From Actinomycetes bacterium (GTDB taxonomy: Bacteria > Actinomycetota > Acidimicrobiia > Acidimicrobiales > RAAP-2), in assembly GCA_021810205.1 (NCBI GenBank), contig JAJZJC010000002.1:1-64000 (forward strand): DNA of 64,000 nt. Direction: 5' to 3'. The translations under genes were made by a program, and so were the position numbers. This document shows, one piece after another, positions 30,556 to 64,000 of the stretch. The notes under the pieces were generated by a model that saw only the letters and a program-made list of their open reading frames with translations, ran no database searches and had not been told where the DNA came from. Position 1 is the first letter of the stretch. Every line of letters starts with the position of its first letter.

Positions 30556-30568
30556 CGTCGCGGGGCGT

Positions 30569-32374: not shown

Positions 32375-32527
32375 ACCTTCTACCGTAGACCTGGGCCCGC
32401 TGCCCACATGGGATCAGCGCCAGCCGACGAGGATCCCGATCGCACCGGGCGAGGCACCCGCCACCGTGATACCCCGGCTGTGATGACGCGACATAGCCCA
32501 GCGCGAGACGCAGGTCCAGATTGGATC

Positions 32528-35932: not shown

Positions 35933-36242
35933 CACGGGACCCGCTGAACTGGCGCTAGTTCCACTTCCTGCAGTGCTCGCACCGGCGCTCCGCGACACCC
36001 GTGACAATGTTCCACGACCCGCGAAAGCCTACACGCCCGTTGACGCGGCGTCGACACGACGCATCGACACGCATCGACCAGTCCCTCTCCCTCCTCATGA
36101 CCGGCCTCCTGGCGTCCGCATGGAATGGCGCGTGCCGGCACAGTCCACCAATTCTCCCCACCCTCGGCATACGATGACCGCCGTCGCGATCGAGGGCGCC
36201 GGCAGCGGCTCTGCGGCGTCGTCATGCGATGGGTGAGGCGGC

Positions 36243-43138: not shown

Positions 43139-44065
43139 TTAGACCGCGCCCCACACGACGAGGTGTGACCTGAACGCGGTGGCGTCCCAGTCGCGCACCA
43201 TCCATCTCGGCAACTGCAGCCGGTCGTTCAACCGGGTCACCCTTCCGCCAAGCGTGGTGCACGCGGTGGCGAAGCCGCAGCGCCGGGCCGCATCGACCGA
43301 GTCGCGATCGAACGACGACGGGTCGCCGTAAGGGTAGGCGAGGTCGCGCACCGGGCGTCCGAGCAGCTCTTCGAGCGCGAGGGCCGAGCCGTGCATTTGC
43401 GCTTCCTGGGCGGCGGGTGGGAGTCCTGCGAGCAGTCGATGATCGACCGTGTGGGCGCCCACCGTCACCAAGGGACTGGATGCCAGCTTCTGGAGCTCCT
43501 CGTGGCGGAGCACCCGCGAGGAGCGCGGCTCGGGCACGTCCGTGCCGAGCTGGATCGCGATCGTCACCAGTGCGGCGTCAACGACCTCCATGTCAACCAG
43601 TCGAAGGCGCGAGTGGAGCGCGACCAGCGCGTCGGTCGCCGCTCTCGCCCCGTGGAGCGACACCCGGAGCGGCGACCCACTGAGGTCGAGCTCGAGCTCG
43701 ACTTCGGTGCGCCCACCGAGCAGCAGTGCGAGCCGGTCCCACCAGAACCCGCTCCGGTCCCCGAGGGCGCCGGTCACGACGAAGAAAGTGGCCGGCACGT
43801 CGCAGGCCTCGAGCGCCGGGAGCACGTGCTCGAGGTTGTCGGCGTAGCCGTCGTCGAAGGTGAGCGCGACCTGTGGGCGACCGCGGCGCCAGAGGCAGCG
43901 AACGGGTCGCCTGGCAGCCACGAGGTCCGCGAGCGGCACGACGTCGGCCAGGTCGACGAGCACGCCGAGCTGGGCCTCGAACCGCTCGGGATCGACGCAG
44001 AGCCCGTACGGGTCCGCCGGATCGTCGGCCACCCGGTGGTACATGAGGATGGTCCGGCGGGTCAT
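43139..44065 (-). CDS. polysaccharide deacetylase
   Basis: [16 protein letters not shown]...[34 protein letters not shown]; start 44065 overlaps upstream stop. Confidence 0.92.
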
Positions 44066-45756: not shown

Positions 45757-46805
45757 CGGGCCGTTGCGTGCACCCGGCGTGGCCGTTCGGCGCGGGCGGA
45801 AGGACGGGACTGGTTGTCGCTATCGGGCCGGGGCATGAGCTCGGTGTCTCTGCCCTGCATGGCGAGCGTCGCGCCGGCGCACAGCGCGATCCTGCGTGCG
45901 AAGCGGAAGACCAGCACCTGGCCACGCGGCCAGCGCACCAGCAGGTCGCCGATCCGTCCCGCGACGATCGCCGACGGCACGCCAAGCCCTGCCATCGAGA
46001 GCACCTTTGCGACGACCCGCGCCGCCACGGGCATGCCATCGAGCACCGAGTCGGGTTCGAACGGTCCGAGCACCTCGGGATGGGCGCGGTGCAGCTGCCA
46101 ACGGCTCGCCCCCTGCATCTTGGAGTACCACACAAACGACGTGGCATCCCGGCCGTGCCGGTGCTCGGCATGGAGCGAGCGGTCGAACCGCCCGACGAGG
46201 CCCGCCTCGAGGCAGCGGATCCCGAGCTCCTGGTCCTCGTGCCCGAAGTAGCGGAAGTCGAGCCCGACCCGCCGGCAGTGTTCCGTGCGGATCGAGACGT
46301 TGCCGCCCCACAGCTGGCACAGCACGGTGGCCGGGTCGGCCTCGTAGCGCCGGCAGTGGCGCTCGTACTCCTCGGCGTAGAGCGCGCTCAACGCCGCGAT
46401 GTCGCCCTCGTCGGGGTCGGGAACCGTCGGCATGTAGCCCACGACGACCAAATTCGCAGCGTCGCGGTGGTGGCGCGCGTGGCCGGTGACGAGCCCGGGC
46501 CCGGCCACCACGTCCTGGTCGAAGAGGAGGGTCACCTCCCCGCTCACGAGCGCGAGGCCGGCGCCCAGTGCAGCGGACTTCCCAGCGTGCGCCACGAGCA
46601 CCGGTACCACCCGGCCGTCCTCCTCGTGCAGCGCCTCGAGCACCTCGAGGGTCCCGTCCCGGCAGCCATCGACGACCACGACCACCTCGGTCGTCGCCGG
46701 ATCGACGAGCAGGGCGCGTACCGTGCGGCTGATCTTCGACGAGTATCGGTAGCTCGGCACCAGCACCGACACGGTCGGTAGCGCGCGTACTACCTGCCCT
46801 ACCAC
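45753..46805 (-). CDS. family 2 glycosyltransferase
   Basis: [46 protein letters not shown]...[16 protein letters not shown]. Confidence 0.92.
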
Positions 46806-47515
46806 GTGGCCTCCCACGGCTCGACGCGCACGACACCGGGACTGTCACGCACATGGTCCCACTGCGCGGCGTAGAAGACCCGGTCGGGGGCCCTCCACTT
46901 CTCTGCATACTGTTCGTCGAGGTATGACGGCAGGTCTGCCGCGCACAACCACGTCGTCCCGTAGAGCGGCGGCACCGTCGGGATCTTGTCTTGGAACCTG
47001 ACTGCGGTCTCCACCTCCACCTCGCGTGGAGCGAGCGGAGAGCGCCGGTCGACAGCGTAAGTGATCCAGTACTCCTTGTCGTCCCGGCGGAAGCAGCGCA
47101 CGAGGTCGATCCATACCCCGTCACGGCGGAGCCGCATTTCGGTGAGGGTGCCCGCGCTGTCCTCGAGACGGTGGACCAGCGCGAAGCCGTTCGCGACGAG
47201 ATGTGGCAGTGCGCACATCATCGCCTCATGGTCCGCGTCGGCGTAGCCGAGGTCCACGTCTGTCAAGTCGTTGTCGAGGGCCCGGCCGTTCCGCGCATAG
47301 CCGATCGCGATCCCGCCCATGAGCCACAGCCTGCATGCCATCTGCGTCTCATCGAGCGTGGCGGCGAGCTGCCTGAGGACCCTGCGGAGCATCAGCGCCC
47401 GCACGGGTCGGCTGTGCGCCGCCTTCGGCGGGAAGAGCTTCCTCATAACGAAGTACCCCGCGCGCTGCCCGGCTGAAGGCCGCGCGAGCGCGATGGGCCG
47501 CTTGGCCGTGCTCAC
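46799..47515 (-). CDS. nucleotidyltransferase/LicD-like protein
   Basis: CRLWLMGGIAIGYARNGRALDNDLTDVDLGYADADHEAM. Confidence 0.6.
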   Translation of the reverse strand: MSTAKRPIALARPSAGQRAGYFVMRKLFPPKAAHSRPVRALMLRRVLRQLAATLDETQMACRLWLMGGIAIGYARNGRALDNDLTDVDLGYADADHEAMMCALPHLVANGFALVHRLEDSAGTLTEMRLRRDGVWIDLVRCFRRDDKEYWITYAVDRRSPLAPREVEVETAVRFQDKIPTVPPLYGTTWLCAADLPSYLDEQYAEKWRAPDRVFYAAQWDHVRDSPGVVRVEPWEATW

Positions 47516-47599
47516 AAGGACCTGCCGGCGACGAGAGGTCGGCGCGGTTCGATCCTCTCCCCGTTCGGCTCCAGGCCCGGGCCGGGGCCGTGCACATGC

Positions 47600-48060
47600 G
47601 GCCAGCCGGCCGGATCGGCCGGCTGCGCAGCGCCTGGCGTACCGTGACGCAGGGGGCGAGGCGATGGGCGATGGGCGAGAAGAGCTCGAGCTCGGCGAAG
47701 CCGAAAGCCTTCGTCTCCGGGTCGGACGCCCCGAGGTGCCGCCCTAGTGCAATGGCCAATGCACCCGGGGAGGCCGTAGCGATAGCCAGCCGGCGAGGCG
47801 AGGCGACGGGGGCCGTGCGCGCCGAACCGCTCGGTGCCGAGCAGCGCCCTGCCCCGTACGACGCCGACATCAATCCAAAGCCGGCGCACGAGGGTGTCGA
47901 CAACGTCCGCCCCGAGCGACGTCTCGTCACCGGCGCCGGGACAGCCAGCGCCGTCGGGCGCGTCGCCGACCGCGGGAGCGACGAAGTGGACCGCGCACTG
48001 GCAGCCCGTCCTTGCCAGCCCGCAAAGGTACGAGACCTCTTGGCTCACGCTCTCGCTCAT
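47600..48060 (-). pseudogene. frameshifted GAF-domain gene (paralog of the 62162-63376 N-terminus)
   Basis: N-terminal homology in one frame (SYLCGLARTGCQ...RRLWIDVGVVRGRALLG), C-terminal homology in another (RRLAIATASPG...LGRHLGASDPETKAFGFAELELFSPIAHRL); switch near 47815. Confidence 0.6.
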
Positions 48061-48221
48061 CGTCGACCGCTCCTCGACCCTGGTCGCCATGGTGCTCCTC
48101 GCTGGCCACCCCCGCAGCGGCGCAGGACCAGGCTACGAACATCCCGTCCCTGGCCCGTCCGCCGCGCGTCCCACGACCACGGAGCTCGCTGAGCTACTCG
48201 TCCAGGTAAGCGGGACCGTCG

Positions 48222-49076: not shown

Positions 49077-50297
49077 ATGGATGTACGACTCACGCGGTTG
49101 GGGGAGGTCACCCAAGCCCAAGAGCGCAAGTGGCGCGCCTTGGCGGCGCGCGCCTTGGAACCCAACCCGGTGCTCGAACCCGAAGCGCTGCTCGGGGCCG
49201 CGAGGCACCTCCCCACGTGGAGCCGACTGCCCCTGCTGGAGGTCACCGACGGCGATGACGTGCTGCTCTGCGCGCTCGCCCGCCCGATCGATCGCTGGCG
49301 AAAGCTCCCCTTGCCCACCCTGACCAGTCGCCCCGAGGACGAGGCAGTCCCGGTCTTCGTGGTGCTTGGCACCCCTCTCGTCGATCCCGCGCGTGCGCAT
49401 CAAGCCGTCACCGCGCTCTTGTCTGCGTTGAAGAGCGGCGACGTCCGCCCGCATGGCAGCCGGAAGGCTGCGCTCATCACCGTCGATCGCTGGCAGGCGG
49501 GTGGGGGTGTCGCCAAGGCGTGGGAGAACGCATGCGCTGACCTCTCCCTCCCCGTCGCCACGTCGAGCAGGTGGGATCGCCCGGTCCTCCTGCGAGAAGA
49601 GGCACTTCGCGACCGCTGGCCCGCGCAGATCAGCCGAGGCCGCCGGCGCGAAGCGGAACGCTGCCGCCGACGGCTCGCCGAGGAGCTCGACGGCCTCGTG
49701 GAGTGCCACGATCGAAGCGCCGACCCTGCAGCCATCGACAAGCTCCTCCAGCTGGAGGCAGAGGGGTGGAAGGGAAGGGCCCGCAGCGCGCTCAACGCCG
49801 ACGCCGCACGCGCCGACGCGTTCGCCGACGCCTGCCGGGCTTGGGCGCTCGACGGGCGCCTCCTCCTGCTGACGTTGGAGGCCGGTGCGACGCTGCTCGC
49901 AGCCGTCTGCTGCGTCCGATCGGGTGCGGGACTCTTCGGGCTCAAGACCGCATATGACGAACGGTATGCGCGCTTCGGTCCCGGTCTCCTCCTCCACCTG
50001 GCGGCGGCGGCGCACTTTCTGTCCAACACGGATGCGTCGTGGATGGACTCTTGCACCGCGCCGTCCAACACCTTCTTCTCGACGCTCTTCCCTCATCGAG
50101 TGGCGGTCGTCTCCACGACGACCGGGCTCGACTGGGTGGGCAGTGCCGCGCTGAGGTCACTGCCGCTCGTCGAGACGGCGGCGACCTTCCTGCGCCGGAG
50201 TACACGCCGAGCCCCCGTGACCCCGACGAGCACGAGCCGGTCCGCCATGTTGCCCGTTGCGATGACCGTGGAAGAGACCGTCCGCCGATCGGGATAG
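49077..50297 (+). CDS. GNAT/BioF2 (FemAB-like fold) acyltransferase
   Basis: CHDRSADPAAIDKLLQLEAEGWKGRARSAL...; paralog of next gene. Confidence 0.75.
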   Translation: MDVRLTRLGEVTQAQERKWRALAARALEPNPVLEPEALLGAARHLPTWSRLPLLEVTDGDDVLLCALARPIDRWRKLPLPTLTSRPEDEAVPVFVVLGTPLVDPARAHQAVTALLSALKSGDVRPHGSRKAALITVDRWQAGGGVAKAWENACADLSLPVATSSRWDRPVLLREEALRDRWPAQISRGRRREAERCRRRLAEELDGLVECHDRSADPAAIDKLLQLEAEGWKGRARSALNADAARADAFADACRAWALDGRLLLLTLEAGATLLAAVCCVRSGAGLFGLKTAYDERYARFGPGLLLHLAAAAHFLSNTDASWMDSCTAPSNTFFSTLFPHRVAVVSTTTGLDWVGSAALRSLPLVETAATFLRRSTRRAPVTPTSTSRSAMLPVAMTVEETVRRSG

Positions 50298-51271
50298 ACC
50301 CACAGAAGCGTCTGATTGTCCTCGTAGGTGCAGCTGTCGATCCATGCTGCGTCGGTCGTGCGGCAGAGGTGTTCGATCGTGTCGAAGTGGAGCTGGATCC
50401 CCGGCGAGTACCTTGCCATCGCCTCGTCGAAGGTGAGCTTGCACAAGAACATGCCCGCGCCACCTCGGAGAAACAGCTGAGCGGCGACGACACGATCCCC
50501 TGCCTCGAGCGTATGGAGATGGAGTCGCCCGGCAACCCGGAACCGCTCGCACATCTCACGGAACCACTCGGGCTCGCCCACTTGGGTGAGGATGGCGACG
50601 CCATTTCGCCCCTTGTACCCGGACGCCTCCATTTGGAGCACGGCCTCCACCGCCGCTGGGTCCGCGCTGCGGTCGTGAAACCGAACCTCGGCGCCAAGAT
50701 GGCGTCCGAGCAGTCGCCGTTTGCGGGCGATCGTCGCAATGGTCTTCTTCGAGTGGTGCGCCGAGTGCTCACTTGCGGACCGCGTCCGCACCACCGGTCG
50801 CTCCCACCGGTGGTAGACACGCCGGGTCAATCCAAGACGGCCTGCCGCGTCTGCAAGCGCTTCTGCGACGGGGCCGTCGTCCAGCCAGTTGAAAACCAGC
50901 AATCCGGGCAACCGATCATCAGCCGCAGCACGTAGCACGTGCAGGACCGCCCGCCAGGCATCGGATGCGCGGCGCTGATCCACGAGCGGCGTCGCGTCGT
51001 AGTCCATACGGCGCACCTTGGTCATGAGCAGCGGGCGGCGCAGCGCCCGCCATGACGGCTCCGCCTGCACGGGAAAGCAGGCATGCCACACTCCCTCGTC
51101 CTCGGCAACGACGAGCTGCATCCGTGAACCGTTCGACAGGTGCCCGGCCGCTGGGAGGAGGCAATCTGGCTCGAAGAGGGGGTTCGGCTGGACGGCGCGC
51201 TCAGCGAGGTCGCGCCACGCGGCAATGTCCTTTTCACCCAGGCTCAGGATCGGGCGAATGTGACCGTTCAT
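50093..51271 (-). CDS. GNAT/BioF2 (FemAB-like fold) acyltransferase
   Basis: FHDRSADPAAVEAVLQMEASGYKGRNGVAILTQ...FREMCERFRVAGRLHLHTLEAGDRVVAAQLFL. Confidence 0.8.
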   Translation of the reverse strand: MNGHIRPILSLGEKDIAAWRDLAERAVQPNPLFEPDCLLPAAGHLSNGSRMQLVVAEDEGVWHACFPVQAEPSWRALRRPLLMTKVRRMDYDATPLVDQRRASDAWRAVLHVLRAAADDRLPGLLVFNWLDDGPVAEALADAAGRLGLTRRVYHRWERPVVRTRSASEHSAHHSKKTIATIARKRRLLGRHLGAEVRFHDRSADPAAVEAVLQMEASGYKGRNGVAILTQVGEPEWFREMCERFRVAGRLHLHTLEAGDRVVAAQLFLRGGAGMFLCKLTFDEAMARYSPGIQLHFDTIEHLCRTTDAAWIDSCTYEDNQTLLWVYPDRRTVSSTVIATGNMADRLVLVGVTGARRVLRRRKVAAVSTSGSDLSAALPTQSSPVVVETTATR

Positions 51272-51311
51272 CAGCTGTGCGCCTCCACTTGGTGGACCGT
51301 CATGTTCCTCG

Positions 51312-53222
51312 TTACCCTTCGCGACCGGGGCGTGCCGGCACCGCGCAGCCGAAATCCCGTTCGCTTCGCACACCTGCCATCGCCAGCACGGCGCGGGTGA
51401 CACGCTCGATCACCGCGTCACGCTGCGAGGCGACGACAAGGCCATGGTCGAGACCGGGCAGCACGTCGATGTGGAACCGTTCGTCGGTGCCATCATCGAG
51501 GCCGGCGTCGGCGAGCTGACCGGCTTCGGCTTCGCCGCACACGCAGTAGATCCGGACCCCGGCCGCGGCGAGCTCGGCGGTCCATGTGACGCGCCGCCGT
51601 CTCTTCGTCCGTGCGCCATCGAGCAGCCGCCGGACGGTCGCCAGCATCCTGCTGAGCCGGTCAGGTAGCACGCGCCGGGCGCCCGCGACCCATACCGGCC
51701 GGGGCTGGCAGAGCCGGCGCCGTGACGAGACGGGGCCTCCCTCGGCAAGCTCGGGCGGCGTGAACCGCAGCAACGGGTTGATGCCGATCACGCCGAGTGG
51801 CTTCAGCACCAGCGCGCTTTCCAGCGCCTGGTACGCGCCGGAGCAGAGGCCTGCGAGCACGGTCCTCTCGGGACCGCCGACGGCGTCGACGAGGTCAGCT
51901 ACGTCGTCGAACGCCTCGATCGCACGGATGACGCCCTCGGGCCGCCCCGGGCGAGGCGGGCTCTCGCCCAGACCGCTCAAGTCCACCCGCACAGAGCGAA
52001 TCCCGTGGGCGGCGAGCCGCCGAGCCAGCAGGACCCACAGCCGGACAGGGCCGACATGCGACTCATTGCCGCTGGAGAGGAACAGCACGGTCGCCGGCGC
52101 TGCCACTTCGGGCGCCGCACCACCACAGCATCCGTCCTCACCCGACGCCCAGCTGCGACCGTGCGGGACCGTCTCGATGCCGAACAAGCCTCGGGCTCCC
52201 AGGGCACGCACCCGTTCGAGGACGGCCACCTCTTCCTTCACGGCGGGGGGCACGACCATCGGCTCTGAGGCTCGGGCCATGCGCAGCGACTTCTCGGCCT
52301 CTGCGCGTCGGTCGACGTCCTCGGCAGCGGTCACCCCACATCGATCTCGGTCACGGCCAAGCTCACCCAACGCGCTCGAGACCCAGTCGACGACCAAGCT
52401 CGCGGTCGCCTCAGGTACCTGCTGGCGCAGCGGGTCGACCTCAAAGCAGTCCTCCTGCTCGCTCCCGACAGCGGTGAGGACGTCTGCCGAGTCGCCCGGC
52501 GTGGAGTCCCCATACGACTCGATCAGTGGCAGCCCAGCGCTCGTGGAGGAGGCGCGCACGACGTACAGCGCTCTTCGCGCCGAGAGAGTTCCGGGCAGCT
52601 CGAGCCGATCGATCGCCTCAACGGTCGCTGGATCCAGCTCGAACCCCGGAACCTCGACGCCTCTCGACGGATCGGGCCGCGGCACTCGGATCGCCTGTAG
52701 CGCGCGCTGACCCCGGAGGAACACTCGGCCGCTTGACGAGGGATCCCAGATCACCAGTGCGTCGACGTCCTGGCGCAGCACCGCCGACTGCGCGGCAACG
52801 AGGGCGCCCGAACGCACTCCCAAGAGCGCGAGCGGTCCCGCACAGCGAGCGCGCGCAAGCATGACCGCCTGGTCCACCCCCTCGAACCAGGCCGTGGCGC
52901 TCCGAGAGCCAGCCAGTGCCCCTCCGGAGTCACCCGTGCCGCGGTAGTCGAATCGCACAGCGACCAAGCCCCTGCGCGCCACGGCGCGCGCGACCACGCG
53001 GTAGAGGGCGAACGCAGCCGCCTGCTCCCCGAGCAGCGGGGGGACGAGCACGACCGCACCCCGCGGGGCCGACGCCGGTTCGTGCAGCCACGCGAAGATC
53101 GGCCATCGGCCCTGCTCGAGCCATACCGGCGTCTCGTCGGACACCTCTCGCCCTCTCACCCGCACTCTGCTGCGTCCGAGGAGATCGGCATCGGTCGTTC
53201 GCCGTTCCACCATGTCGATCAT
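51312..53222 (-). CDS. tandem alpha/beta-hydrolase didomain protein
   Basis: Two hydrolase halves: VRFDYRGTGDSGG and VRVDLSGLGESPPR...AGLCSGAYQAL. Confidence 0.75.
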   Translation of the reverse strand: MIDMVERRTTDADLLGRSRVRVRGREVSDETPVWLEQGRWPIFAWLHEPASAPRGAVVLVPPLLGEQAAAFALYRVVARAVARRGLVAVRFDYRGTGDSGGALAGSRSATAWFEGVDQAVMLARARCAGPLALLGVRSGALVAAQSAVLRQDVDALVIWDPSSSGRVFLRGQRALQAIRVPRPDPSRGVEVPGFELDPATVEAIDRLELPGTLSARRALYVVRASSTSAGLPLIESYGDSTPGDSADVLTAVGSEQEDCFEVDPLRQQVPEATASLVVDWVSSALGELGRDRDRCGVTAAEDVDRRAEAEKSLRMARASEPMVVPPAVKEEVAVLERVRALGARGLFGIETVPHGRSWASGEDGCCGGAAPEVAAPATVLFLSSGNESHVGPVRLWVLLARRLAAHGIRSVRVDLSGLGESPPRPGRPEGVIRAIEAFDDVADLVDAVGGPERTVLAGLCSGAYQALESALVLKPLGVIGINPLLRFTPPELAEGGPVSSRRRLCQPRPVWVAGARRVLPDRLSRMLATVRRLLDGARTKRRRRVTWTAELAAAGVRIYCVCGEAEAGQLADAGLDDGTDERFHIDVLPGLDHGLVVASQRDAVIERVTRAVLAMAGVRSERDFGCAVPARPGREG

Positions 53223-55759
53223 CGTCGTTGCACCACGATGGGGACGTGGTCCGGGGAGTTCAGCGCCTGGACCGTCCCCCGGGGAACCAGCATGGCGTCG
53301 CCCGCCGAGCCCTCTTCCTGCCAAAGCTCGACGGTCCGTCGACGGCCTGGCGGGAGGTGGAACCAGGAGTCCGCCGGAATGAAGCCCTCCACCCGGAGGC
53401 TGACCCACTGGGCAAGGCGCTCGGACTGGACGTCCACCCGCCAACACCCGTCCGAGCCCTGATGGGCGGACGCCCGAAGCCCCAGGTCCCGTTCGAAGGT
53501 ACGGGCCTGCCCCAGCGGCAGGTAGACGACCTGCGCGAGGGGGGTGTCTGCATTGGGGCCGGTGCCGTCGACCCCTGCACGGGGCAACAGCGTCGCCACC
53601 ACCGCGTCGTACGCGGGCGGAGCGAACCGATAGGCGTACGTGACGTCGCGCCACGCGCCCAGGACCTCCTCGGCGCCGATCGAGAAGCTGCCGCGCCCCG
53701 CTACGTCCACGGCGACGTCGGCCCGCTCCACCAACACCGCGCCGGGAGCCACGAGCGCCACCTCGAGGAGGGCCGCGACGGGCTGCGGACCGTCGTTCAC
53801 GACGTGGAGGGCGAGCCCGTTCAATCCTTCGTCCACCGCGAGGAGCGCAAGCGGCGCCAGCACGCGCCGCAAGGCGTACCAGGGCGCTTTCGGCCGGCCG
53901 GCACTGTCGACGAGACCCCAGCCGGCCCCGGCCCGCAGATCGGACAGCGCCAGCACGAGGCCGCCGTCGCACGGCGACCCTGGGCGCCGCCACTCGGTGA
54001 ACACAGCCTCCATCAACACGGCGTTCGCAGCCCGTCCCAGCTCGAGCGCCCGCTCGGGGTCGGCGTAGCGGACCTGGAACGGATCGACGCCGAAGAGAGA
54101 GCCGACGTAGTGGGACCGCACGTCCTCCATGTCCCAGCTGCGGCCGGCGTCGTGGTGGACGGCCCGCTTCCATTCGGGGTCGTGACCGGCACGAGTGGCG
54201 CCGCCGCACAGCTCCTCCACAGTCTGGGGCTCAGGCGGAGTCGCGAGTGCCAGGCACTCGGCGGCAAAGCGAACCGAGGCGCGCCGGACGTCGTCAAGGG
54301 GCCGGAGGTACCCCCCGACCCCGAAGTACTGGCTCACCCCCTGGTCCATGCGGAATGGCGGTTCTCCGCCAGACGGGTTGGAGGCCACGTAGGGAATGCC
54401 GGGCAGCACCTCGGCGACCACGTCGGCCAGGAGCTCGTCGAAGAGCGGCGTGGCTCGACGTTCCGCTGGGAGACCGAACATCGCCGCGACCTCCTCCACC
54501 TCCTGATTCCCGCACACGACCGCGAGACTCGGATGACCGTCGAGGGCGACCAACGATTCGCGCGTCTCGGCCACCATCTCGGCCCGGAAACACTCGTCGT
54601 CAGGGGGGTCCATGAACGCGAACATGCAGTCCTGCCAGACAAGCATGCCAAGCTCGTCGCACTGTTCGACGAAGGAAGGAGTGGGCAGCACAGTGGTCCC
54701 CGGTACCCGGACCATGTTCATCCCGGCCGCCTTGGCAAGCTCCAGCAAATGGCGCTCGGGCCGTCCGGCTGCGCCCGGCGACAGCGGGTCGGGCGGGAAC
54801 CACACCGCCCCCCGGCAGAATATCCGGACGTCGTTCACCTGCAGCTCGAAGCCGCCGTCGGCACGCTCGAGACCCAGGGTGCGGAAGCCGACCGACCCGA
54901 GAACACAGGCACGATCGCCCAGCTCCGCCACAACTTGGTACCGGGGTTGTGGACCATGGGTGTGGGGCCACCATCGCTCGGCGTCCGAGAGGGTGACCGA
55001 CCCGGCACACAAGAGCTCACCATCTGACTCGCGCCACTCGAGCGGCGCCGTCGCGCCACCAACGACGAGACGGCCCGGCCCTTGTCCAACACGCGCGGCC
55101 GCTGCTGCTCTTGGCAGACAGAAGTGCGCCTCGACCGCGCCGCCGCCGTCTGGGAGGCAGCTCGTGCGCAGCCACACGTCGGTCACGCTCGACCCGTCGA
55201 GCGCGATGAGCTCGACCGGTCTCCACAGCCCGACAACCGGCGGGACCTCCGCCCATCCCGGCATGCGGCCGAGCAGGCTGGTACGAATCCAACGCAGCTG
55301 CTGGTGCTCGACGAGATAGGTCTTCCAGCGCGGCCGTGGCCGCCGATCACGTAGGACCGGGCCGAGTGCCGCACACCGGACAACCAGCTCGCAGTCACCC
55401 AGAAGATCACCGACATCGACGGTTGCCGCACGGTGCATCGTCGATGACGTCAGCACATGCTCACCGTTCAGCCAGACGTCCGCCAACGTGGCGATGCCCT
55501 CGAACCGGACGCGATAGGGACCACCGGGCCCCTTGAAGCGGCAACGGAACCACCAGTCGGACTCGTCCAACGCCTCATGGTGCAGTGGTCGCCCGGCGGC
55601 GCGCAGGGCGGAAGCCACGGTGCCCGGCACCTGGGCCGGGAACCAGTCCACGTGCTCTGTGAGCATCCCGACGCTCGCCATCGCCCCTGCGTCGCCCTGG
55701 GCGCATTCCCATCCAGCCTCGAGGCGCACCGGCCTGCCCCTCACCGGTCCGCCTCTCAC
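53219..55759 (-). CDS. glycoside hydrolase family 2 (beta-mannosidase-like)
   Basis: WFPAQVPGTVASALRAAGR...DESDWWFRCRFKGPGGPYRVRFEGIATLADVWLNG; GTG start 55759 overlaps upstream stop (GTGA). Confidence 0.88.
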   Translation of the reverse strand: MRGGPVRGRPVRLEAGWECAQGDAGAMASVGMLTEHVDWFPAQVPGTVASALRAAGRPLHHEALDESDWWFRCRFKGPGGPYRVRFEGIATLADVWLNGEHVLTSSTMHRAATVDVGDLLGDCELVVRCAALGPVLRDRRPRPRWKTYLVEHQQLRWIRTSLLGRMPGWAEVPPVVGLWRPVELIALDGSSVTDVWLRTSCLPDGGGAVEAHFCLPRAAAAARVGQGPGRLVVGGATAPLEWRESDGELLCAGSVTLSDAERWWPHTHGPQPRYQVVAELGDRACVLGSVGFRTLGLERADGGFELQVNDVRIFCRGAVWFPPDPLSPGAAGRPERHLLELAKAAGMNMVRVPGTTVLPTPSFVEQCDELGMLVWQDCMFAFMDPPDDECFRAEMVAETRESLVALDGHPSLAVVCGNQEVEEVAAMFGLPAERRATPLFDELLADVVAEVLPGIPYVASNPSGGEPPFRMDQGVSQYFGVGGYLRPLDDVRRASVRFAAECLALATPPEPQTVEELCGGATRAGHDPEWKRAVHHDAGRSWDMEDVRSHYVGSLFGVDPFQVRYADPERALELGRAANAVLMEAVFTEWRRPGSPCDGGLVLALSDLRAGAGWGLVDSAGRPKAPWYALRRVLAPLALLAVDEGLNGLALHVVNDGPQPVAALLEVALVAPGAVLVERADVAVDVAGRGSFSIGAEEVLGAWRDVTYAYRFAPPAYDAVVATLLPRAGVDGTGPNADTPLAQVVYLPLGQARTFERDLGLRASAHQGSDGCWRVDVQSERLAQWVSLRVEGFIPADSWFHLPPGRRRTVELWQEEGSAGDAMLVPRGTVQALNSPDHVPIVVQRR

Positions 55760-56832
55760 CGGTCCGCCTTCGACGAGTTCGACGGCTCGAAGGGCCACCG
55801 CGTGGCGCGCTCGTCGCCGCCACGTCGGGGTCGCCCACGGCGGCTGGTGCCCGCCGCGCCGACAGCAGCCGACACCGCGTCGCTCACCGCCCCGATCCCC
55901 GCCGCCCAGCTGGCTGCGAGTGGAGCGAAGAGCACGTCCACGTCGACGGCACGACCGCGGACCGCGCGCGCCATGGCCATCTGCGCCGCCTTCGCCTCGA
56001 TGGCCACGGTCTCGAGCGCCGCAGCGCCATCCGAGGCGCCGGCCACACCTGCCGCCTCGAGCCACGTGGCGAAGGAAGCGGCCAGCTCGGCATTGGCCCC
56101 GCACTGTCGCAGGGTGCCGAAGGCCCAGCGGTGGAAGGCGTCAAGCCCCTCCCGCTGAAGCCGGTCTAGGTCGTGGAGCACCCGCTCCGCCATCTGGATG
56201 ACCGGATTACCCTGGGCGCGACGGCTGAGATGTGCGGCAGCAAGCCTGATCGCCACGGCAGGGTCGGTGGCCCCGGGCGGTCGGCGCCTGCCCAGGCGGA
56301 CCTGGAGCGTGTATGGCGGCAGCACGTCTGGTGCCGGCGTTTCGGGCAGCAGGGTCTCGAAGTCCTCGCCGCGGAGCTCGTAGCAGCCGGCGTTGTGCAG
56401 GTACCGCAGGGATCGCCGCTCGGTATCGATGGACGTCACCATGAGCGTCGTCTTCTGATGGACCCGTCGATACGTGAGGCCCGCGGTGTCAGGAAGGCAC
56501 CATGCGTCTGCGTCGAACGCCACGAGGTTGCCCAGCGCGAGCTGCTCGACGACGTGCTCCCGCAACGGCCGCCAGACGTTCAGCTCGTCCGCCTCGATCC
56601 CATAGAGCGACGAGAGGGTCTCCTGGGGGTAGGTGAACATTCTCCACTGGTCCCCATCGAAGCCCGAGGCAAGCGTGAAGGAGAGCCCTGCAACCGGGTC
56701 GTAGCCGAGCGCGTGGAGCGCCTCGATCCACAGATCGGCGGCGCAGTTCGTCTCCGACCAGATGCGGTCCACGCCGTGCAGCCGGTGGGGTCGGTATCGA
56801 ACAGGGTCGAGACCGAAGACATCAGCTCGCAT
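55756..56832 (-). CDS. DUF1839/BtrH-N-like protein
   Basis: MRADVFGLDPVRYRPHRLHGVDRIWSETNCAADLWIEALHALGYDPVAGLSFTLASGFDGDQWRMFTYP; family known beside aa:CP ligases. Confidence 0.75.
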   Translation of the reverse strand: MRADVFGLDPVRYRPHRLHGVDRIWSETNCAADLWIEALHALGYDPVAGLSFTLASGFDGDQWRMFTYPQETLSSLYGIEADELNVWRPLREHVVEQLALGNLVAFDADAWCLPDTAGLTYRRVHQKTTLMVTSIDTERRSLRYLHNAGCYELRGEDFETLLPETPAPDVLPPYTLQVRLGRRRPPGATDPAVAIRLAAAHLSRRAQGNPVIQMAERVLHDLDRLQREGLDAFHRWAFGTLRQCGANAELAASFATWLEAAGVAGASDGAAALETVAIEAKAAQMAMARAVRGRAVDVDVLFAPLAASWAAGIGAVSDAVSAAVGAAGTSRRGRPRRGGDERATRWPFEPSNSSKADR

Positions 56833-56850
56833 GCCGGTGATCTCCCTGTG

Positions 56851-57864
56851 TCAGGCTTGCGGGCCGGCCAGCCCGAGCTGGGCCCGCACGTAGAAGGGCC
56901 ACGATGCCGGGTCCAAGCCGTGGACGGCCAACATCGCGACCACGATGCGGTCGATGCCGAAGGCCACGCACGCGCTGTGCGCCACCTCTCCCGCAGCGGA
57001 ATGGATACCGAAGGACTTGCCGAAATGGTCCCGGTGACTGTTGGCGGACATGACCGCGGTCTCACCCTCGGTCCCCGGGATGGGAGTGACGCCCTCAATC
57101 TTCAACTGCTCCTCCAGCTGTCCGGCAGCGAGCACATTGCCCACGCGCCCGAAGAACGGGTCGGACGCCGGGACGGCCCGCATCGAGAGTCCGAGGCCCT
57201 CGAGCATGCGCAGGCCGCAAGCCAGCCCCTCCTCCCTGTGGTTCCACGCGCTCTCGGCACTCCCCACATGGACGATCTCGTGCATCACGAACGACTGCAG
57301 GCGAGCCGCGTTCACGCTCGGCTCGTGACGGAAACATGAGCTCTGGACGTCGAAGATCCTGCCGCCTTCGGGCAGTGTCCCGGTGCACAAGGGGTAGACG
57401 CCGTGGCACGCGGCGGAGCACAAGACGACGTCCGCCGGCTCGAGCAGGGCGGGCCAGTCCCCGTCGGACGCCACCCGCTGCAGGAGCTGCTTGTGCTCGG
57501 CATCACCGCCAGTGAAGACGTGCACCGACCCCATCAGGTCGGGGAACGACTCGAGGTAGTTGGTGTGGAGGAAGGTGGAGCGTGCCAGGACCGGGGGCAG
57601 GTGGACCCGCTGCGCCCCAAGATCCTGGCCCCACCGGCGCACCATGAGGCCGACACCGTCGGCCACGTCCTGGTAGACGCCGGAGCGTCCGTAGAGCCCG
57701 AGGACCCCGGTCGGCACGAGCAGGCCGGCTTTCAGCATCTTGTCGACGAGCGAGGAGTGCCCCGCGACCGGGGCTCGGGGGTCGGAAGGTGCGACCAGCG
57801 TGCCGGGGTACCCGGTCGTGGCCTCCTCGGCGTAGTGCACGTGGGTCTGGACCATTACTGTCAC
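56851..57864 (-). CDS. amino acid--[acyl-carrier-protein] ligase (truncated class-II SerRS-like)
   Basis: SCFRHEPSVNAARLQSFVMHEIVHVGS (motif 2), SACVAFGIDRIVVAMLAVHG (motif 3); no tRNA-binding domain. Confidence 0.85.
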   Translation of the reverse strand: MTVMVQTHVHYAEEATTGYPGTLVAPSDPRAPVAGHSSLVDKMLKAGLLVPTGVLGLYGRSGVYQDVADGVGLMVRRWGQDLGAQRVHLPPVLARSTFLHTNYLESFPDLMGSVHVFTGGDAEHKQLLQRVASDGDWPALLEPADVVLCSAACHGVYPLCTGTLPEGGRIFDVQSSCFRHEPSVNAARLQSFVMHEIVHVGSAESAWNHREEGLACGLRMLEGLGLSMRAVPASDPFFGRVGNVLAAGQLEEQLKIEGVTPIPGTEGETAVMSANSHRDHFGKSFGIHSAAGEVAHSACVAFGIDRIVVAMLAVHGLDPASWPFYVRAQLGLAGPQA

Positions 57865-59093
57865 GGCTTTCCTTCATGTCGGTCGTTCTCGATTGGATCC
57901 CTGGAGAGGAGGAGCAGCTGGGCGTTGTCTCCGAGAATGCGGTCGTTGCTCACCATGAGCTCGGCACTATGGGCGTCGCGAAGCTGCCGACCCAGGCTGA
58001 ACGGGGTCCCTTCGCGATACCCGTCCATGCCGCAAACGGCCAGCGCGCCGCTCACCACTTCGACGACCAGCTTCGACGCCCCGAGCTTGAGGGCGTTCAG
58101 GGTGACCGCATCACCGACGCCCTCCGCCCGACGCCCTCCCGCGTCCTCGTCGTAGCGGGCGAGAGTCGCGGACACGAGCCCGTCGAGCTGGTGGAAGACC
58201 ACGTCGAGCTCGGCGAGCCGACGAGCCCCCGGCGGCACGGTGCCTGGTTCGTGGCGTGCCTTTCTTCGAACGAACGCACTGGCCTTGGACACCGCGGCGT
58301 CGGCGATCCCGAGCCAGACGTGGCTCCACAGGATGTGGGAGTACGGCAGCATCGTCTCGGCTGCCACATCGGCGAACGGGTCGTCGACGATCATTGTCAA
58401 CGGGCCGGCGGCACGGAGCATGAAACCGGGGCTGCACGTGCCCCGCAGTCCCAGCGTGTCCCACTGGCCCGTCTGCTCGAGCAGGACGTCCGGCCGAACG
58501 CACGCCGCGAGCACCTGGTCTCCTGGAGCACTTTCGGGCGTGCGTCGAGCCGTGACCAGCACCGCATCGGCGGACGCCCCGTAGGAGACCACCGGCGCCC
58601 GCTTCTCCAGCACGAAGCGTCCGTTCTCGGCGTGCACGGCGCAGCTGCTCTCGCGCAGCCTCCCACCGCTGCCGGCCTCGGTGGTCGCCGAGGCCAGAAG
58701 GAGCTGACGGCCCGCGACGTCGGCCAGAAAGCGAAGCAAGCCAGGCGATCGGCCGTGACGCACGAGGCACGCCACCTGAAGGTGATGCATCGCCAGGATC
58801 ATGGCACTCGACGCGCAGTAGCGAGCCAGCGCACGCACGCCTGCGCCGGCCTCGCCGAGCGTCGCGCCCCTCCCTCCAAGCCCCTCGGGGACAAGAGCCC
58901 CGAGGACGCCGGCTTCTTTCAGCGCGTCGAAGGCCTCGATCGGGAACCGGGCGGACCGGTCGACGTCGTCGGCGTGGGCAGCAGCCACGTCACGTCCGAT
59001 CCTCCTCACGGACTGCAGGAGGGTAGGAGCTTGGACCTCCGCGGCGACCGACGTGGCATCTGCCGCTGCGTCCTGCACGACTGAGACGGTCAT
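57861..59093 (-). CDS. acyl-CoA dehydrogenase family protein
   Basis: LASATTEAGSGG..., GLGGRGATLGEAGAGVRALARYCASSAMILAMHH. Confidence 0.85.
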   Translation of the reverse strand: MTVSVVQDAAADATSVAAEVQAPTLLQSVRRIGRDVAAAHADDVDRSARFPIEAFDALKEAGVLGALVPEGLGGRGATLGEAGAGVRALARYCASSAMILAMHHLQVACLVRHGRSPGLLRFLADVAGRQLLLASATTEAGSGGRLRESSCAVHAENGRFVLEKRAPVVSYGASADAVLVTARRTPESAPGDQVLAACVRPDVLLEQTGQWDTLGLRGTCSPGFMLRAAGPLTMIVDDPFADVAAETMLPYSHILWSHVWLGIADAAVSKASAFVRRKARHEPGTVPPGARRLAELDVVFHQLDGLVSATLARYDEDAGGRRAEGVGDAVTLNALKLGASKLVVEVVSGALAVCGMDGYREGTPFSLGRQLRDAHSAELMVSNDRILGDNAQLLLLSRDPIENDRHEGKP

Positions 59094-59359
59094 GCCGGTA
59101 CTTCCATCGTCTCGAGCGCGCCGAGCGCTCGCCGAAGCGCGCTGATCGACGAGAACGTGCTCTTTCGCAGCATCGCCTCTGGAAACTCCACGTCGAAGGC
59201 GTCCTCCAGTGCGAGCATGACGTTCACGCTGGCATGGGAGGTCATCCCCGCCTGGAACAGGTCGTCGTCGTCGGAAAGGCGCTCCACGTGCACCGGCAGG
59301 CGGCCATGCTCGGCCAGTACGCCACGTATGCGTTGCGTCAGCTCGTCCGTCTTGCTCAT
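59090..59359 (-). CDS. candidate independently translated carrier protein (internal start of the AcpS-ACP ORF)
   Basis: ATG at 59359 preceded by GAGGAG with 7-nt spacer (gaggagcacatcgATG). Confidence 0.6.
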   Translation of the reverse strand: MSKTDELTQRIRGVLAEHGRLPVHVERLSDDDDLFQAGMTSHASVNVMLALEDAFDVEFPEAMLRKSTFSSISALRRALGALETMEVPA

Positions 59360-59854
59360 CGATGTGCTCCTCGGGTGTTGGTTCGATCGATCGTGAGGGG
59401 AGGTCTCAGGAGCTCCTGGGCATGCCTTCTTCGCTGGCCGGTCGCAGACGGCCACCACCACGGCGAGCGCGATCCCTGATTCATGGCTGAGGCTCACGCT
59501 CATGCGGCCGGTCCCGCGTCGGGCGGCGAGCGAGGCAGCCCGGTCGTGCAGGCGTATGCGGCAGGCGCCGTTGGATCGACGCACCACCTCGATGTCGCGC
59601 CATTGTGGCCGGGCCCCATGCGGCTCGAGCACCTTCAGGACCGCTTCTTTGGCCGCGAAGCGAGCCGCCAGTGACGCGGCAGCGCCAGGACCGTGGCCGC
59701 AGCTTGCAATCTCCTGCTTGGTGAACAGGCGCTCGACATAGCGATCCCCGAACAGTGCGACGGACTTGGCGACGTCCGTGACCGCCGTGACGTCGACGCC
59801 GACCCTGACGTCGCCGAGCGTGCCGTCGGTGGCCCGAAGACCGAGCTCAGGCAT
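59090..59854 (-). CDS. holo-ACP synthase (AcpS-like) fused in frame to acyl carrier protein
   Basis: VGVDVTAVTDV...FTKQEIASC...LAARFAAKEAVLK...VSLSHESGIALAVVVAV followed without stop by MSKTDELTQRIRGVLAEHG...AGMTSHASVNVMLALEDAFDVEFPE. Confidence 0.85.
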   Translation of the reverse strand: MPELGLRATDGTLGDVRVGVDVTAVTDVAKSVALFGDRYVERLFTKQEIASCGHGPGAAASLAARFAAKEAVLKVLEPHGARPQWRDIEVVRRSNGACRIRLHDRAASLAARRGTGRMSVSLSHESGIALAVVVAVCDRPAKKACPGAPETSPHDRSNQHPRSTSMSKTDELTQRIRGVLAEHGRLPVHVERLSDDDDLFQAGMTSHASVNVMLALEDAFDVEFPEAMLRKSTFSSISALRRALGALETMEVPA

Positions 59855-62144
59855 CCAGGCCTCCCAGTACCCGTCGGAGCAGATCGTCGGCGTTCTGATC
59901 GCACGGAAGAGACACGACCAGGTGCTCGGCTCGTGCGGTCCATGGGGTGGACCCCACGGGGATTCCCTCATCTGCCAAGGCGGCGAGCGCCGCTCCCTCG
60001 AGGTGCGCTGCCACTCGAGCACCGTCTTCAGCGGGGTCGGCGAACACCACCACCACCGCCACGAAGAGCGACGACCCGACGCGTGCGAGCAGGTCGTCGA
60101 ACCGCAGCTCGGCTCGGAGCCTCTTCGCCACCGTCGCCAAGAGCTCCTCGGGCGCGCTAGCTGCGCGCCCATGAACGGCCGTCGCACCGCGCCGAACCTC
60201 GATGCCGACCAGCGCCACGGACCAGCCCGGTTGGTGCACCGCCCCGAGCAGTCGCCCAATCCGCGCCAGCAGCACCGCACCGGTCGCGAGCCCCGTGACC
60301 GGATCGGTGTCGGCCAGGAATCGCGCGGCCGCGTCGTGGCTCCTCGCGTCGCGAGGGATGGGGCCGACGCCGGCTCCCATCTGCGTCCATGACGCCCTTG
60401 GAGCGCCCGGGAGGCCGGAGGATGGCTCTCCAGAGGCATGCCCCAAGAGCGTGGCGGCGCGCTCGGCTGCGCGAGAGCTTGCAGAGTCAGCGACGACGCC
60501 GGACCGCACATCGAGCGCGTCGAGCAATGAGAACCTCTGCACGGTCGCAGTACGGGGGGCGATCGCTCCATTCGCCGCCATCTCAGCGCCTCGGATCCGA
60601 GGTCCGCTGATCGCGAGGACGACTTGCGCCGGTGTGAGCACCGGTTGCGGGGCGACCGAGCCCCTGTCGGGCGCAGGCGTGCCCTTCTCGCGCGATCGCC
60701 GAACGATGGTTGTCCAGGCTGTCGATATCAGGCGCCACAGCTCTGCTCGCGTCGAACGGACGGCAAACAGCGCGAGCGTCGGGGCGAGCAGCAGGAAGCC
60801 CCACCGGATCGGGACGAGAGGAATGAACATGGGAGACGCGAGTGCGACAAGTGGAAGGATGAGCCGCCGGTATTCGAGCGGGATCAGTCGCTGCGCCGCG
60901 ACGTGCGTATTGATCGTGGAGGCCACGGCAGCGAGCGCGGCGATCCCGTACCCGATGAGCCCAAGCTCTCGCACAGCCACCAGCGCGACGAGGCTCACGA
61001 TCACCAGCTCGAGCACACTCGTGATGGCGGGCGCGCCGTTCCTTCCGTAGGCATACAGAACGGTCCGCTGGGCCGTGGCCGGGACTCTGAGCGTCGCCCA
61101 GAGGGCCAGCAGCACGTACAGGGGCAGCGCGGGGAGCCAGACGCGCCCGAAGCCAACGAGGATGGCCCAGTGCGCGAACAGGCCGAAGACGACGAACGGG
61201 AGTGCCGAGATAACCAGCAGTAGCAGCGTGCCCTCTTCCAGCGCCGCCGCGAGACGACCCGACTTGGACTCGCTCGCCCGCGAGATGGCCGCCAGCCCGA
61301 TGCGATGCACGCCCCGGTCGGTGAAGTTCATCGTCAAGACGAGCCGTTGGGCGAAGTTCACCAAGCCGACGCCAGCTGCGCCCGCGAAGGTGCCGACGAT
61401 CATCGTGAGGATTGCCGAACGTACCCCCGCCACCCACGTCGTGACGGAGAAGGTCCTCCCGTGCACGATCAGTTCGCGCGCCGTGCGGTTCGACCACGCA
61501 AGCCGGGGCCAGAGCCCCGAGAGCGCCATGCTCCCGACGAGGAGCCAGCTCTGCCAGGCGAAGAAGCCCGCGATCAGCGACCAAGGTCCTGCCCCCATCA
61601 CGGCGAGGGGCACCGCCGTGCCGTACAGCACCACATCTCCGCCGAGCTCCAGGAGGCCCAACTGCCGAAATGCGAACCTTCGCTCGAGACGCGCCTGCAT
61701 CGGCGCCCAGAGAATGTTGACGGGCACGCTCAAGAGCAGCACCCGCATCGGAGGCACGACGCCATGGGGTCGGAGCAGCGGGCCGACGAGGTACGAGATG
61801 CCCATTCCCGCAGCCACGACAACGCCAGAGGCAACGAGCAACGTCGTGAACACCTCGTCGTAGCGTCGCCGCGGCAGGGGTCCTGGCTGGCGGATGAGGA
61901 AGACCTCTGCGCCCATCTGCGCGAGGGTCGCGGGGAGCACGACGTATGCAGCTGCCGCGCTGTAGAGCCCGAAGTCCGACGGTCCGATCCTCCGCATCAC
62001 AAGCACCAGGCCGAGCAGTCGGATGCCGACCCCCAGCACTTCGCGCCCCGTCAGGTACGCCGCGCTGCGGATAGCCGTCTCCCGCAAGGAGCTGGGCGTC
62101 TCCAGCTCCCTTCCTCTCCCACCACCACGCGCTCGGCCCAACAT
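59847..62144 (-). CDS. Wzx/MATE-type polysaccharide flippase with C-terminal degenerate GGDEF domain
   Basis: N-terminal YLTGREVLGVGIRLLGLVLVMRRIGPSDFGLYSAAAAYVVLPATLAQMG; C-terminal DPVTGLATGAVLLARIGRLLG...LRFDDLLARVGSSLFVAVVV. Confidence 0.88.
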   Translation of the reverse strand: MLGRARGGGRGRELETPSSLRETAIRSAAYLTGREVLGVGIRLLGLVLVMRRIGPSDFGLYSAAAAYVVLPATLAQMGAEVFLIRQPGPLPRRRYDEVFTTLLVASGVVVAAGMGISYLVGPLLRPHGVVPPMRVLLLSVPVNILWAPMQARLERRFAFRQLGLLELGGDVVLYGTAVPLAVMGAGPWSLIAGFFAWQSWLLVGSMALSGLWPRLAWSNRTARELIVHGRTFSVTTWVAGVRSAILTMIVGTFAGAAGVGLVNFAQRLVLTMNFTDRGVHRIGLAAISRASESKSGRLAAALEEGTLLLLVISALPFVVFGLFAHWAILVGFGRVWLPALPLYVLLALWATLRVPATAQRTVLYAYGRNGAPAITSVLELVIVSLVALVAVRELGLIGYGIAALAAVASTINTHVAAQRLIPLEYRRLILPLVALASPMFIPLVPIRWGFLLLAPTLALFAVRSTRAELWRLISTAWTTIVRRSREKGTPAPDRGSVAPQPVLTPAQVVLAISGPRIRGAEMAANGAIAPRTATVQRFSLLDALDVRSGVVADSASSRAAERAATLLGHASGEPSSGLPGAPRASWTQMGAGVGPIPRDARSHDAAARFLADTDPVTGLATGAVLLARIGRLLGAVHQPGWSVALVGIEVRRGATAVHGRAASAPEELLATVAKRLRAELRFDDLLARVGSSLFVAVVVVFADPAEDGARVAAHLEGAALAALADEGIPVGSTPWTARAEHLVVSLPCDQNADDLLRRVLGGLDA

Positions 62145-62161: not shown

Positions 62162-63376
62162 TCAGCCCGCACGAAGCTTCACCACCGCGGCACGAAGCAG
62201 CTCGTCTGCGTCCTGCCCGCCGTTGAGCGGCGCGACAGCATGCGCCGCGTGGACGCGCGCACCGGCGATCCTCGCGACCGCAGCCCGCGCCTGCCCAGAC
62301 ACATGATCCTCCACCTGCGCCGCGGTCGCGCCTCCGGGGGCGAGCGGCACCACGGCGACGAACGACAGCTCGCCGATGCGCGCCACTGGATCGTCGAAGC
62401 GCAGGCCTGTCCGTATCGACCGAACCACGTCGGTGACGCGATCCGCCGACGGATCCTCCACTCCCTCGATCTCCACGGCCACCGCGGCAAGGGAGCCGCT
62501 CATCGACGACCCTGCGCCGAGCAGCCTGCCAGCTCTCCCGAGAAGGGCACCGAGCGGGACCAGCCCGTCGATCTCCTCCTCTTCGACCAGGAGGGAACGA
62601 AAGGAGTCCTCTTGACGCGCGCGCGCGGGCTCGTCGTGTCCCGGCGCTCTGTCGCCGGCCTGCAAATCGACGGCGCGAAGGCTCGCTGATCGGCGATCAC
62701 CGGTGCTGCCTTTGCTGCCTTCCCGCACCGGGAACGCCGGGAACGCACCGGCGCCCGCGGGCAACCCGTCACGCCACCGTGCGACCGCGGCGCCGGGGAC
62801 GTCGCCGCCGATCGCCGCTGAAGCGGGCCGGGATCCGGCGTCGTCCTCGGATGCTCCCTCACCCCGAGGCGCAGGCTCCTGCGGCATCGGCATTGCGTCG
62901 AGTGCCGGCTCCGACGCCGTCTTGGTGTCGGTCTCAGTCGCGCGAATCAGCCGGTTGCGCACCGCGCGACGCGCCTGGACGTACGAGGTCATCCGCCGAG
63001 CGATCCTGGAGAGCAGCTCGAGCTCGGGCATCCCGAACGTCCTGCCGCTCGGATCGACGGCGCCCAAGATTCCCGCGAGTTGATCCTGCCCATTGACCGC
63101 GACAGGCACAGCGACGACCGCCAAGCGCTCATCGCCGATCTGCATGGTGCGCACGACGGCCTTGCCACGCCCGAGGCCAGGATCATGCCAGAGCTGGCGG
63201 ATGAGGCAGTCCACCGTCGACTCTTCTACTGCGCCCGGCTCGGCGGAGACGGGGTAAACAAGAGAAGCAAACGAGTCGGCGGACTGCGCGAGTGCCACGA
63301 ACGACGAGGCACTCTGGCAACCGCTCCGCGCAATCCGGAGCAGGTTGATCGTCCCCCCACTCAGTCGCTGTTCCAT
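62162..63376 (-). CDS. GAF + degenerate GGDEF-domain protein
   Basis: MEQRLSGGTINLLRIARSGCQ...LAGILGAVDPSGRTFGMPELELLSRIARRM; LRFDDPVARIGELSFVAVVPL; ATG 63376. Confidence 0.8.
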   Translation of the reverse strand: MEQRLSGGTINLLRIARSGCQSASSFVALAQSADSFASLVYPVSAEPGAVEESTVDCLIRQLWHDPGLGRGKAVVRTMQIGDERLAVVAVPVAVNGQDQLAGILGAVDPSGRTFGMPELELLSRIARRMTSYVQARRAVRNRLIRATETDTKTASEPALDAMPMPQEPAPRGEGASEDDAGSRPASAAIGGDVPGAAVARWRDGLPAGAGAFPAFPVREGSKGSTGDRRSASLRAVDLQAGDRAPGHDEPARARQEDSFRSLLVEEEEIDGLVPLGALLGRAGRLLGAGSSMSGSLAAVAVEIEGVEDPSADRVTDVVRSIRTGLRFDDPVARIGELSFVAVVPLAPGGATAAQVEDHVSGQARAAVARIAGARVHAAHAVAPLNGGQDADELLRAAVVKLRAG

Positions 63377-63492: not shown

Positions 63493-64000
63493 TCAGTGCC
63501 GTTTGCACCGCGTCCCACGCCGCTGCCAACGTGCGATCGAGCCGCCCCCATCAGGCGCCCAGGACGCACCACCCACCCGCTGACCGACAAGACCCCCTGG
63601 CGTCAAGACCTTCTGACCGGCAAGAAGGTCCTGGCGGAGCACTGCGGCAGCACGCGGGAACGTCCCGCCAGTCAGTGCCAGTGCCTGGTAGTCCCAAAGC
63701 ATGCACATGACGAGGTGCTCGCTCACCGCCCATCGCAGCATCTGCGAGACGAACCTGGCATCGTCGCCTGCACCCCCGAGCGACGACGGGATCTCGCCCC
63801 ACATGGCGATAGCCATCGGTTTGTGGTGAGCAGCAGCAAAAGAGGCCATCCACGCGGGTCCGAAGCGCTCGTGGAGCACGGTCGACCAGTGCCCGGCTGT
63901 CGATGGGTCATCGGCGACGAAATCGAACGCGTCGGTGCCGACGATGCCGACGGCCTTGTTGCCCGGGTACATAGCGGCCGGGCTCACCGGTGAAGTGCCT
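63493..64000 (-). CDS. glycosyl hydrolase (GH26-like) C-terminal part, 5' end beyond window
   Basis: MYPGNKAVGIVGTDAFDF...FAAAHHKPMAIAMWGEIPSSLGGAGDDARFVSQML; frame open to window end. Confidence 0.6.
   Translation of the reverse strand, partial: GTSPVSPAAMYPGNKAVGIVGTDAFDFVADDPSTAGHWSTVLHERFGPAWMASFAAAHHKPMAIAMWGEIPSSLGGAGDDARFVSQMLRWAVSEHLVMCMLWDYQALALTGGTFPRAAAVLRQDLLAGQKVLTPGGLVGQRVGGASWAPDGGGSIARWQRRGTRCKRH

Follow-up and report, generated by a model that had tools for sequence, protein, structure and literature searches.

A predicted c-di-GMP-responsive Wzx/Wzy exopolysaccharide locus with a receptor-bearing flippase in an acidimicrobial family

The analysis of a 64,000-nucleotide window, by which we mean the whole stretch of DNA examined, reveals a series of minus-strand genes around an open frame that joins a polysaccharide flippase to a degenerate GGDEF domain. 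The features that bear on this frame are as follows.

63550-64000, minus strand: C-terminal part of a glycoside-hydrolase-like gene, a conserved upstream neighbour (GH26-like by eye only; no Pfam match)
62162-63376, minus strand: GAF plus degenerate GGDEF receptor gene P0002, 404 aa from the ATG at 63376 (Pfam matches of homologues, model)
62390-62401, minus strand: RFDD I-site of P0002, followed by GELSF in place of GGDEF (motif alignment)
59847-62144, minus strand: fusion gene P0001, flippase plus degenerate GGDEF, 765 aa (ORF, Pfam, AlphaFold, orthologues)
60684-62087, minus strand: Wzx/MOP flippase part, aa 20-487 (Pfam PF13440/PF01943, Foldseek)
60315-60683, minus strand: predicted disordered linker, aa 488-610 (AlphaFold pLDDT under 50)
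59850-60314, minus strand: degenerate GGDEF domain, aa 611-765 (Pfam GGDEF, family profile to PDB GGDEFs)
60093-60104, minus strand: RFDD I-site motif, aa 681-684 of P0001 (motif alignment)
60063-60077, minus strand: GSSLF replacing GGDEF, aa 690-694 of P0001 (motif alignment)
60003-60005, minus strand: H714 of P0001, third I-site position (equated by spacing with PelD_Bc R395, PMC7112168)
59090-59854, minus strand: AcpS-type phosphopantetheinyl transferase plus acyl carrier protein, one open frame (Pfam)
57861-59093, minus strand: acyl-CoA dehydrogenase (Pfam)
56851-57864, minus strand: amino acid--[acyl-carrier-protein] ligase (NCBIfam PRK07080, above cut-off)
55756-56832, minus strand: DUF1839 protein (Pfam)
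53219-55660, minus strand: GH2-type glycosidase (beta-mannosidase-like)
51312-53225, minus strand: alpha/beta hydrolase, a conserved neighbour
44062-46817, minus strand: GT4 and GT2 glycosyltransferases, with homologues next to the paralogous flippase of contig C12

Positions 59847-62144 form one open frame on the minus strand (read from 62144 to 59847), and the plus reading contains stops. The first-pass annotation had given these coordinates and an uninterrupted 765-aa frame, correctly and without naming the strand, and the DPVTGL, RFDD and GSSLF motifs that it quoted are all present. Pfam matched aa 51-340 of P0001 to Polysacc_synt_3 (PF13440, E 1.5e-29) and aa 26-271 to Polysacc_synt (PF01943, E 6e-10), with no match to the PelG profile, and Foldseek matched the membrane part to MurJ (6nc6, TMt 0.70) and WzxE (9g9p, TMt 0.79). 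The GGDEF match at aa 611-703 (E 4e-4, 20.7 bits) lies slightly below the curated cut-off of 23.8. It is not a chance assignment, since GGDEF was matched independently in 7 of 9 fusion-family members (best E 3e-6), the family profile matched diguanylate cyclases of known structure (E 1e-11) along these C-terminal residues, and AlphaFold modelled this domain with an alpha/beta fold at a pLDDT mostly of 80-95. The AlphaFold model, which had been proposed as a check along with the first annotation, consists of a helical membrane part, the disordered linker at aa 488-610 and the alpha/beta C-terminal domain; together with Pfam, the family profile and Foldseek, it bears out the original reading of a flippase joined to a GGDEF-like domain. 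A simple hydropathy plot of the membrane part showed 13 peaks, which do not fix the topology, and the C-terminus is predicted to be cytosolic from the positively charged tail (aa 468-487) and the homology to MurJ and WzxE. Judged from its sequence, P0001 is a Wzx/MurJ-type flippase with a predicted catalytically dead GGDEF domain that has an intact I-site motif. A reading as an active diguanylate cyclase, of which GG(D/E)EF, a metal Asp and an FKxxND loop are expected, was rejected, as GSSLF replaces the signature motif, the catalytic residues are lost and the GTP loop (FKxxND) is not conserved.

The neighbouring gene P0002 lies 17 bp upstream of P0001. The first-pass annotation had overlooked this gene and, with it, the larger system to which it belongs, including the cyclase, Wzz and Wzy genes that relatives carry in one operon. 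A Pfam scan of P0002 itself was empty; among its homologues GGDEF was matched in 8 of 12 and GAF_2 in 4 of 12, and AlphaFold modelled P0002 as a GAF plus a GGDEF domain, the model beginning at the GAF domain with no membrane helices predicted ahead of it. P0002 and its 11 homologues share a GAF followed by a degenerate GGDEF domain with RxxD, as in PelD, and RxxD is kept in all 12 (R326 and D329 in P0002). No PelD family match for the receptor was obtained in Pfam or NCBIfam, and orthology to PelG or PelD was dropped on these profile tests. Wherever a fused locus has sufficient flank, a gene of this receptor type stands next to the flippase; such a gene also lies upstream of an unfused flippase in four loci (L028, L032, L094, L095) and downstream of one, with one gene between, in two more (L038, L039). 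Several relatives of the flippase have no fused domain and two (L025, L034) have no receptor anywhere in the flank, so the proposed control would not be universal.

Further genes for c-di-GMP turnover or sensing occur in the window and the genome. A BTAD/AAA regulator, a PAS-GGDEF cyclase and a GAF plus degenerate GGDEF gene (RYSD...DRDLF) lie at 29395-36007 on the minus strand, with no flippase, and the same flippase-free context was found in five genomes of the genus (G001, G005, G007, G008, G012). Inside the polysaccharide cluster, 47349-48090 (minus strand) carries a GAF remnant of the same receptor family in two frames and with no GGDEF part, a decayed or frameshifted receptor copy. At the edge of that cluster and transcribed in the opposite direction, 40694-42967 (plus strand) encodes a GAF-GGDEF-EAL protein with an intact GGDEF motif. 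Positions 37862-40651 (plus strand) encode an Rv1355c-family ThiF plus nitroreductase protein that scores far over its NCBIfam cut-off. The genome, a fragmented draft of 177 contigs that is 72% complete, holds 12 other, intact-type GGDEF matches, 10 EAL matches and one PilZ match, which points to an ample c-di-GMP network; PilZ is nearly absent in the genus.

Ten proteins carry the fusion; they come from 9 genomes of a single acidimicrobial family, and one of them is a second fused copy in the genome of P0001 (C12:26009-28072). Among 100 relatives, a full-length match to P0001 was found in three genomes (G003, G004, G019) and a flippase with a C-terminal extension in four (G018, G037, G048, G055). 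A contig search yielded 18 loci of acidimicrobial or actinomycete MAGs, plus a distant Bacteroidales flippase. Fused genes are present in eight, among them L026, a contig identical with G102:C55. The fused part of L026 and L027 comprises a GAF plus a degenerate GGDEF domain, the entire architecture of the neighbouring receptor. The fused proteins are 38-61% identical to P0001, with invariant motif residues. Within the family, 21 of 151 genomes (5 of 21 genera) have the receptor, which also occurs in three genomes from two further families of the order. Outside the family, 396 genomes of the class and 398 of the phylum yielded no fused protein, with the two best candidates per genome scored, and in the sequences retrieved the fusion is limited to part of one family. 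An assembly artefact or a functionless relic is scarcely credible. The draft is fragmented, and the first-pass annotation had itself named a missed stop between the domains as a way in which its reading could fail; the recurrence of divergent fused proteins with unchanged motif residues in nine genomes refutes this explanation and excludes a missed stop or a chimaeric contig as a general one.

The gene order around the flippase was examined in its relatives. Complete loci (L023, L024, L027, L028, L032 and this genome's own C12, which is L042) run in the order PAS-GGDEF cyclase, Wzz-like, Wzy, GH-like, GAF plus degenerate GGDEF, and flippase with or without the fused domain; Pfam matched Wzy_C in L023, L032 and L038, an intact GGDEF cyclase in L023 and, weakly, Wzz in L042. 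The cyclase, Wzz and Wzy genes are not seen beside P0001 because the contig ends at 65,558. The genomic link to Wzy, Wzz and glycosyltransferases expected of a Wzx flippase was seen in the relatives and in the genome's own paralogue, and within the window for glycosyltransferases only. Downstream of the flippase, most loci carry AcpS, ACP, in some cases an acyl-CoA dehydrogenase, an amino acid--ACP ligase, in some cases DUF1839 and GH2 genes, and an alpha/beta hydrolase; in C12 the flippase is followed by GT2, GT4 and deacetylase genes. The AcpS-to-DUF1839 set (55756-59854, minus strand), which travels with the flippase in most relatives, may perhaps specify an amino-acid-derived modification of the glycan. 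Its AcpS and ACP are encoded in a single frame here and by separate genes in relatives, and the start of that frame overlaps the flippase stop by 8 nt. Other fusions occur in the same flippase family: at L038 (7448-11485) and L039 (7604-11479) the flippase is joined to Wzy and a nucleotidyltransferase-like domain, and at L040 (1926-5981) to these and additionally to a GH-like domain.

The conservation of the I-site was assessed in an alignment of 27 degenerate and 44 active GGDEF domains of the same lineage, split by the A-site motif, so that loss of this motif in the degenerate set is by construction. The split is independently backed by a tree that places all 27 degenerate domains in a single clade (100/100), separate from the cyclases. 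In the active set 26 columns are conserved at 90% or more, and of these R681 and D684 alone are kept in all 27 degenerate domains, the next best being D614 and F694 at 24 of 27 each; the chance that two random survivors among 26 columns would be the I-site pair is 1/325, a figure that ignores relatedness. The RxxD motif, RFDD in P0001, sits five residues ahead of the A-site, and at the third I-site position 18 of the degenerate domains have R and 9 have H, including H714 of P0001. The GTP-binding loop is deleted in most of the 27. RxxD was also found in all 44 active domains sampled, which makes this a case of retention and not of acquisition, and RFDD alone was dropped as proof of a receptor. 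The first-pass annotation, which took RFDD as a receptor sign, is borne out insofar as R and D are retained throughout the degenerate set, but the motif by itself weighs less than was implied. The weight of the predicted c-di-GMP binding lies in the retention of RxxD while everything catalytic is lost.

The history of the fusion was read from the domain tree. The fused domains fall in three groups within the clade of standalone receptors, and a topology forcing them into one clade was rejected (p-AU 2e-8). They appear to derive from the neighbouring receptor. A single fusion origin was ruled out by the AU test, and the absence of a single fused clade indicates repeated fusion, although gene conversion between fused and standalone copies could yield the same tree. 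The tree is accounted for either by more than one fusion of the receptor to the flippase or by sequence exchange between fused and standalone copies, and both suggest a close functional partnership. The fusion looks like the covalent capture of a receptor already acting on the flippase in trans.

Holdfast is made by a Wzx/Wzy-type pathway. In Caulobacter, HfsK acts on this polysaccharide adhesin as a post-translational c-di-GMP effector (PMC5362036), in which it resembles the system proposed here; it differs as a GNAT acyltransferase without a GGDEF domain, an unrelated protein. Two FemAB-like GNAT (Acetyltransf_6) genes, the class to which HfsK belongs (PMC5362036), lie at 49077-51403 of the window. 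A likeness in architecture is provided by PelD, which combines a GAF and a degenerate GGDEF domain with an RxxD I-site and whose polysaccharide locus also encodes a MOP-type exporter (PMC8461298, PMC7112168). PelD_Bc binds c-di-GMP with a KD of 103 nM via RxxD and R395 (PMC7112168), and PelD forms complexes with PelE and PelG (PMC8461298). P0002 differs in having neither a Pfam PelD match nor predicted N-terminal membrane helices, the flippase here matches Polysacc_synt_3 and not PelG, the presence of Wzy and Wzz marks the locus as Wzx/Wzy and not Pel, and one receptor copy is covalently attached to the flippase. BcsE and PopA have likewise lost catalysis and kept I-site binding (PMC8461298, PMC12564702), which here is predicted, but they serve cellulose secretion and cell-cycle control and not flippases. 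WzxE, MurJ and TuaB share the fold and family of the N-terminal part of P0001 and carry no signalling domain.

Considering these lines together, we infer, with a probability of about 0.62, that this Wzx/Wzy exopolysaccharide locus responds to c-di-GMP and that the flippase is the point at which the messenger acts. The local PAS-GGDEF cyclase of the operon would produce c-di-GMP, which would bind the I-sites of the soluble receptor and of the flippase-borne domain; association of these through their GGDEF folds, as homodimers or heterodimers, would switch either the flippase or the Wzx-Wzz-Wzy assembly, such that lipid-linked repeat units would be exported only at high c-di-GMP. By analogy with PelD, the effect on export would more likely be activating than inhibiting. 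Control at the flippase is suggested by the RxxD pair and a basic third residue in 27 of 27 domains while the catalytic columns decay, by the adjoining receptor gene, by the operon order, by the nesting of the fused domains among standalone receptors, by the c-di-GMP network of the genome and by the PelD precedent; H in place of R at the third I-site residue of P0001, the presence of RxxD in all active domains sampled, the flippase relatives that lack a fused domain or a receptor, the fragmented draft and the truncation of the contig ahead of any cyclase count against it. The narrower claim that the Wzx flippase is itself the c-di-GMP receptor, with the messenger directly gating the flipping of undecaprenyl-linked repeat units, is tentative, a little short of even odds. 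The first-pass annotation had put forward such direct gating, which is still the most economical reading of the domains and the I-site and is kept here as a prediction.

GGDEF enzymes function as dimers, which lends some weight to a different role, in which the dead GGDEF domains would be partners or tethers of the PAS-GGDEF cyclase, heterodimerising with it, placing it at the export complex and tuning its product inhibition, with the flippase ungated and c-di-GMP directed to another target. In the BTAD context, where no flippase is present (five genomes and the window at 29.4-36 kb), a PAS-GGDEF cyclase is again followed by the receptor gene, as such a role would have it; the repeated fusion to the flippase and the position of the receptor beside unfused Wzx are left unexplained, and we regard this role as unlikely. 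Nor is it probable, and here the odds are decidedly poor, that the C-terminal domain has given up nucleotide binding and serves in assembly or dimerisation, with R and D kept as fold stabilisers. The overall sequence is only loosely conserved, and since RxxD is ancestral in all sampled active GGDEF domains, its retention could partly be structural; against this, every other highly conserved column drifts while R and D stay at 27 of 27 with an always basic third site, and loss of RxxD is common in degenerate GGDEF domains without c-di-GMP binding.

For polysaccharides made by synthase-dependent routes, c-di-GMP control at the post-translational level is well documented. A 2025 paper (PMC12802240) describes the post-translational regulation of Wzx/Wzy-dependent pathways as incompletely understood. 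Control of polysaccharide export by I-site receptors of the dead-GGDEF type is known already, and what appears new is that such a receptor sits on a Wzx flippase within a Wzx/Wzy operon. A literature search with most subscription papers outside its reach brought up no precedent for a flippase-GGDEF fusion or for a receptor on Wzx, and flippases are absent from a 2025 review of c-di-GMP effectors. The first annotation had allowed that the architecture might prove common and already characterised; its restriction to part of one family among the genomes searched and the lack of a paper in our search speak otherwise. The cyclase, the I-site receptor and the receptor-bearing flippase of one conserved operon offer a testable control point at Wzx, for which the soluble receptor and the small domains suit binding assays, and the repeated natural fusions point to a physical partnership. 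If the proposed control is true, Wzx/Wzy pathways would gain a c-di-GMP-controlled step comparable to that at BcsA or PelD in synthase-dependent pathways.
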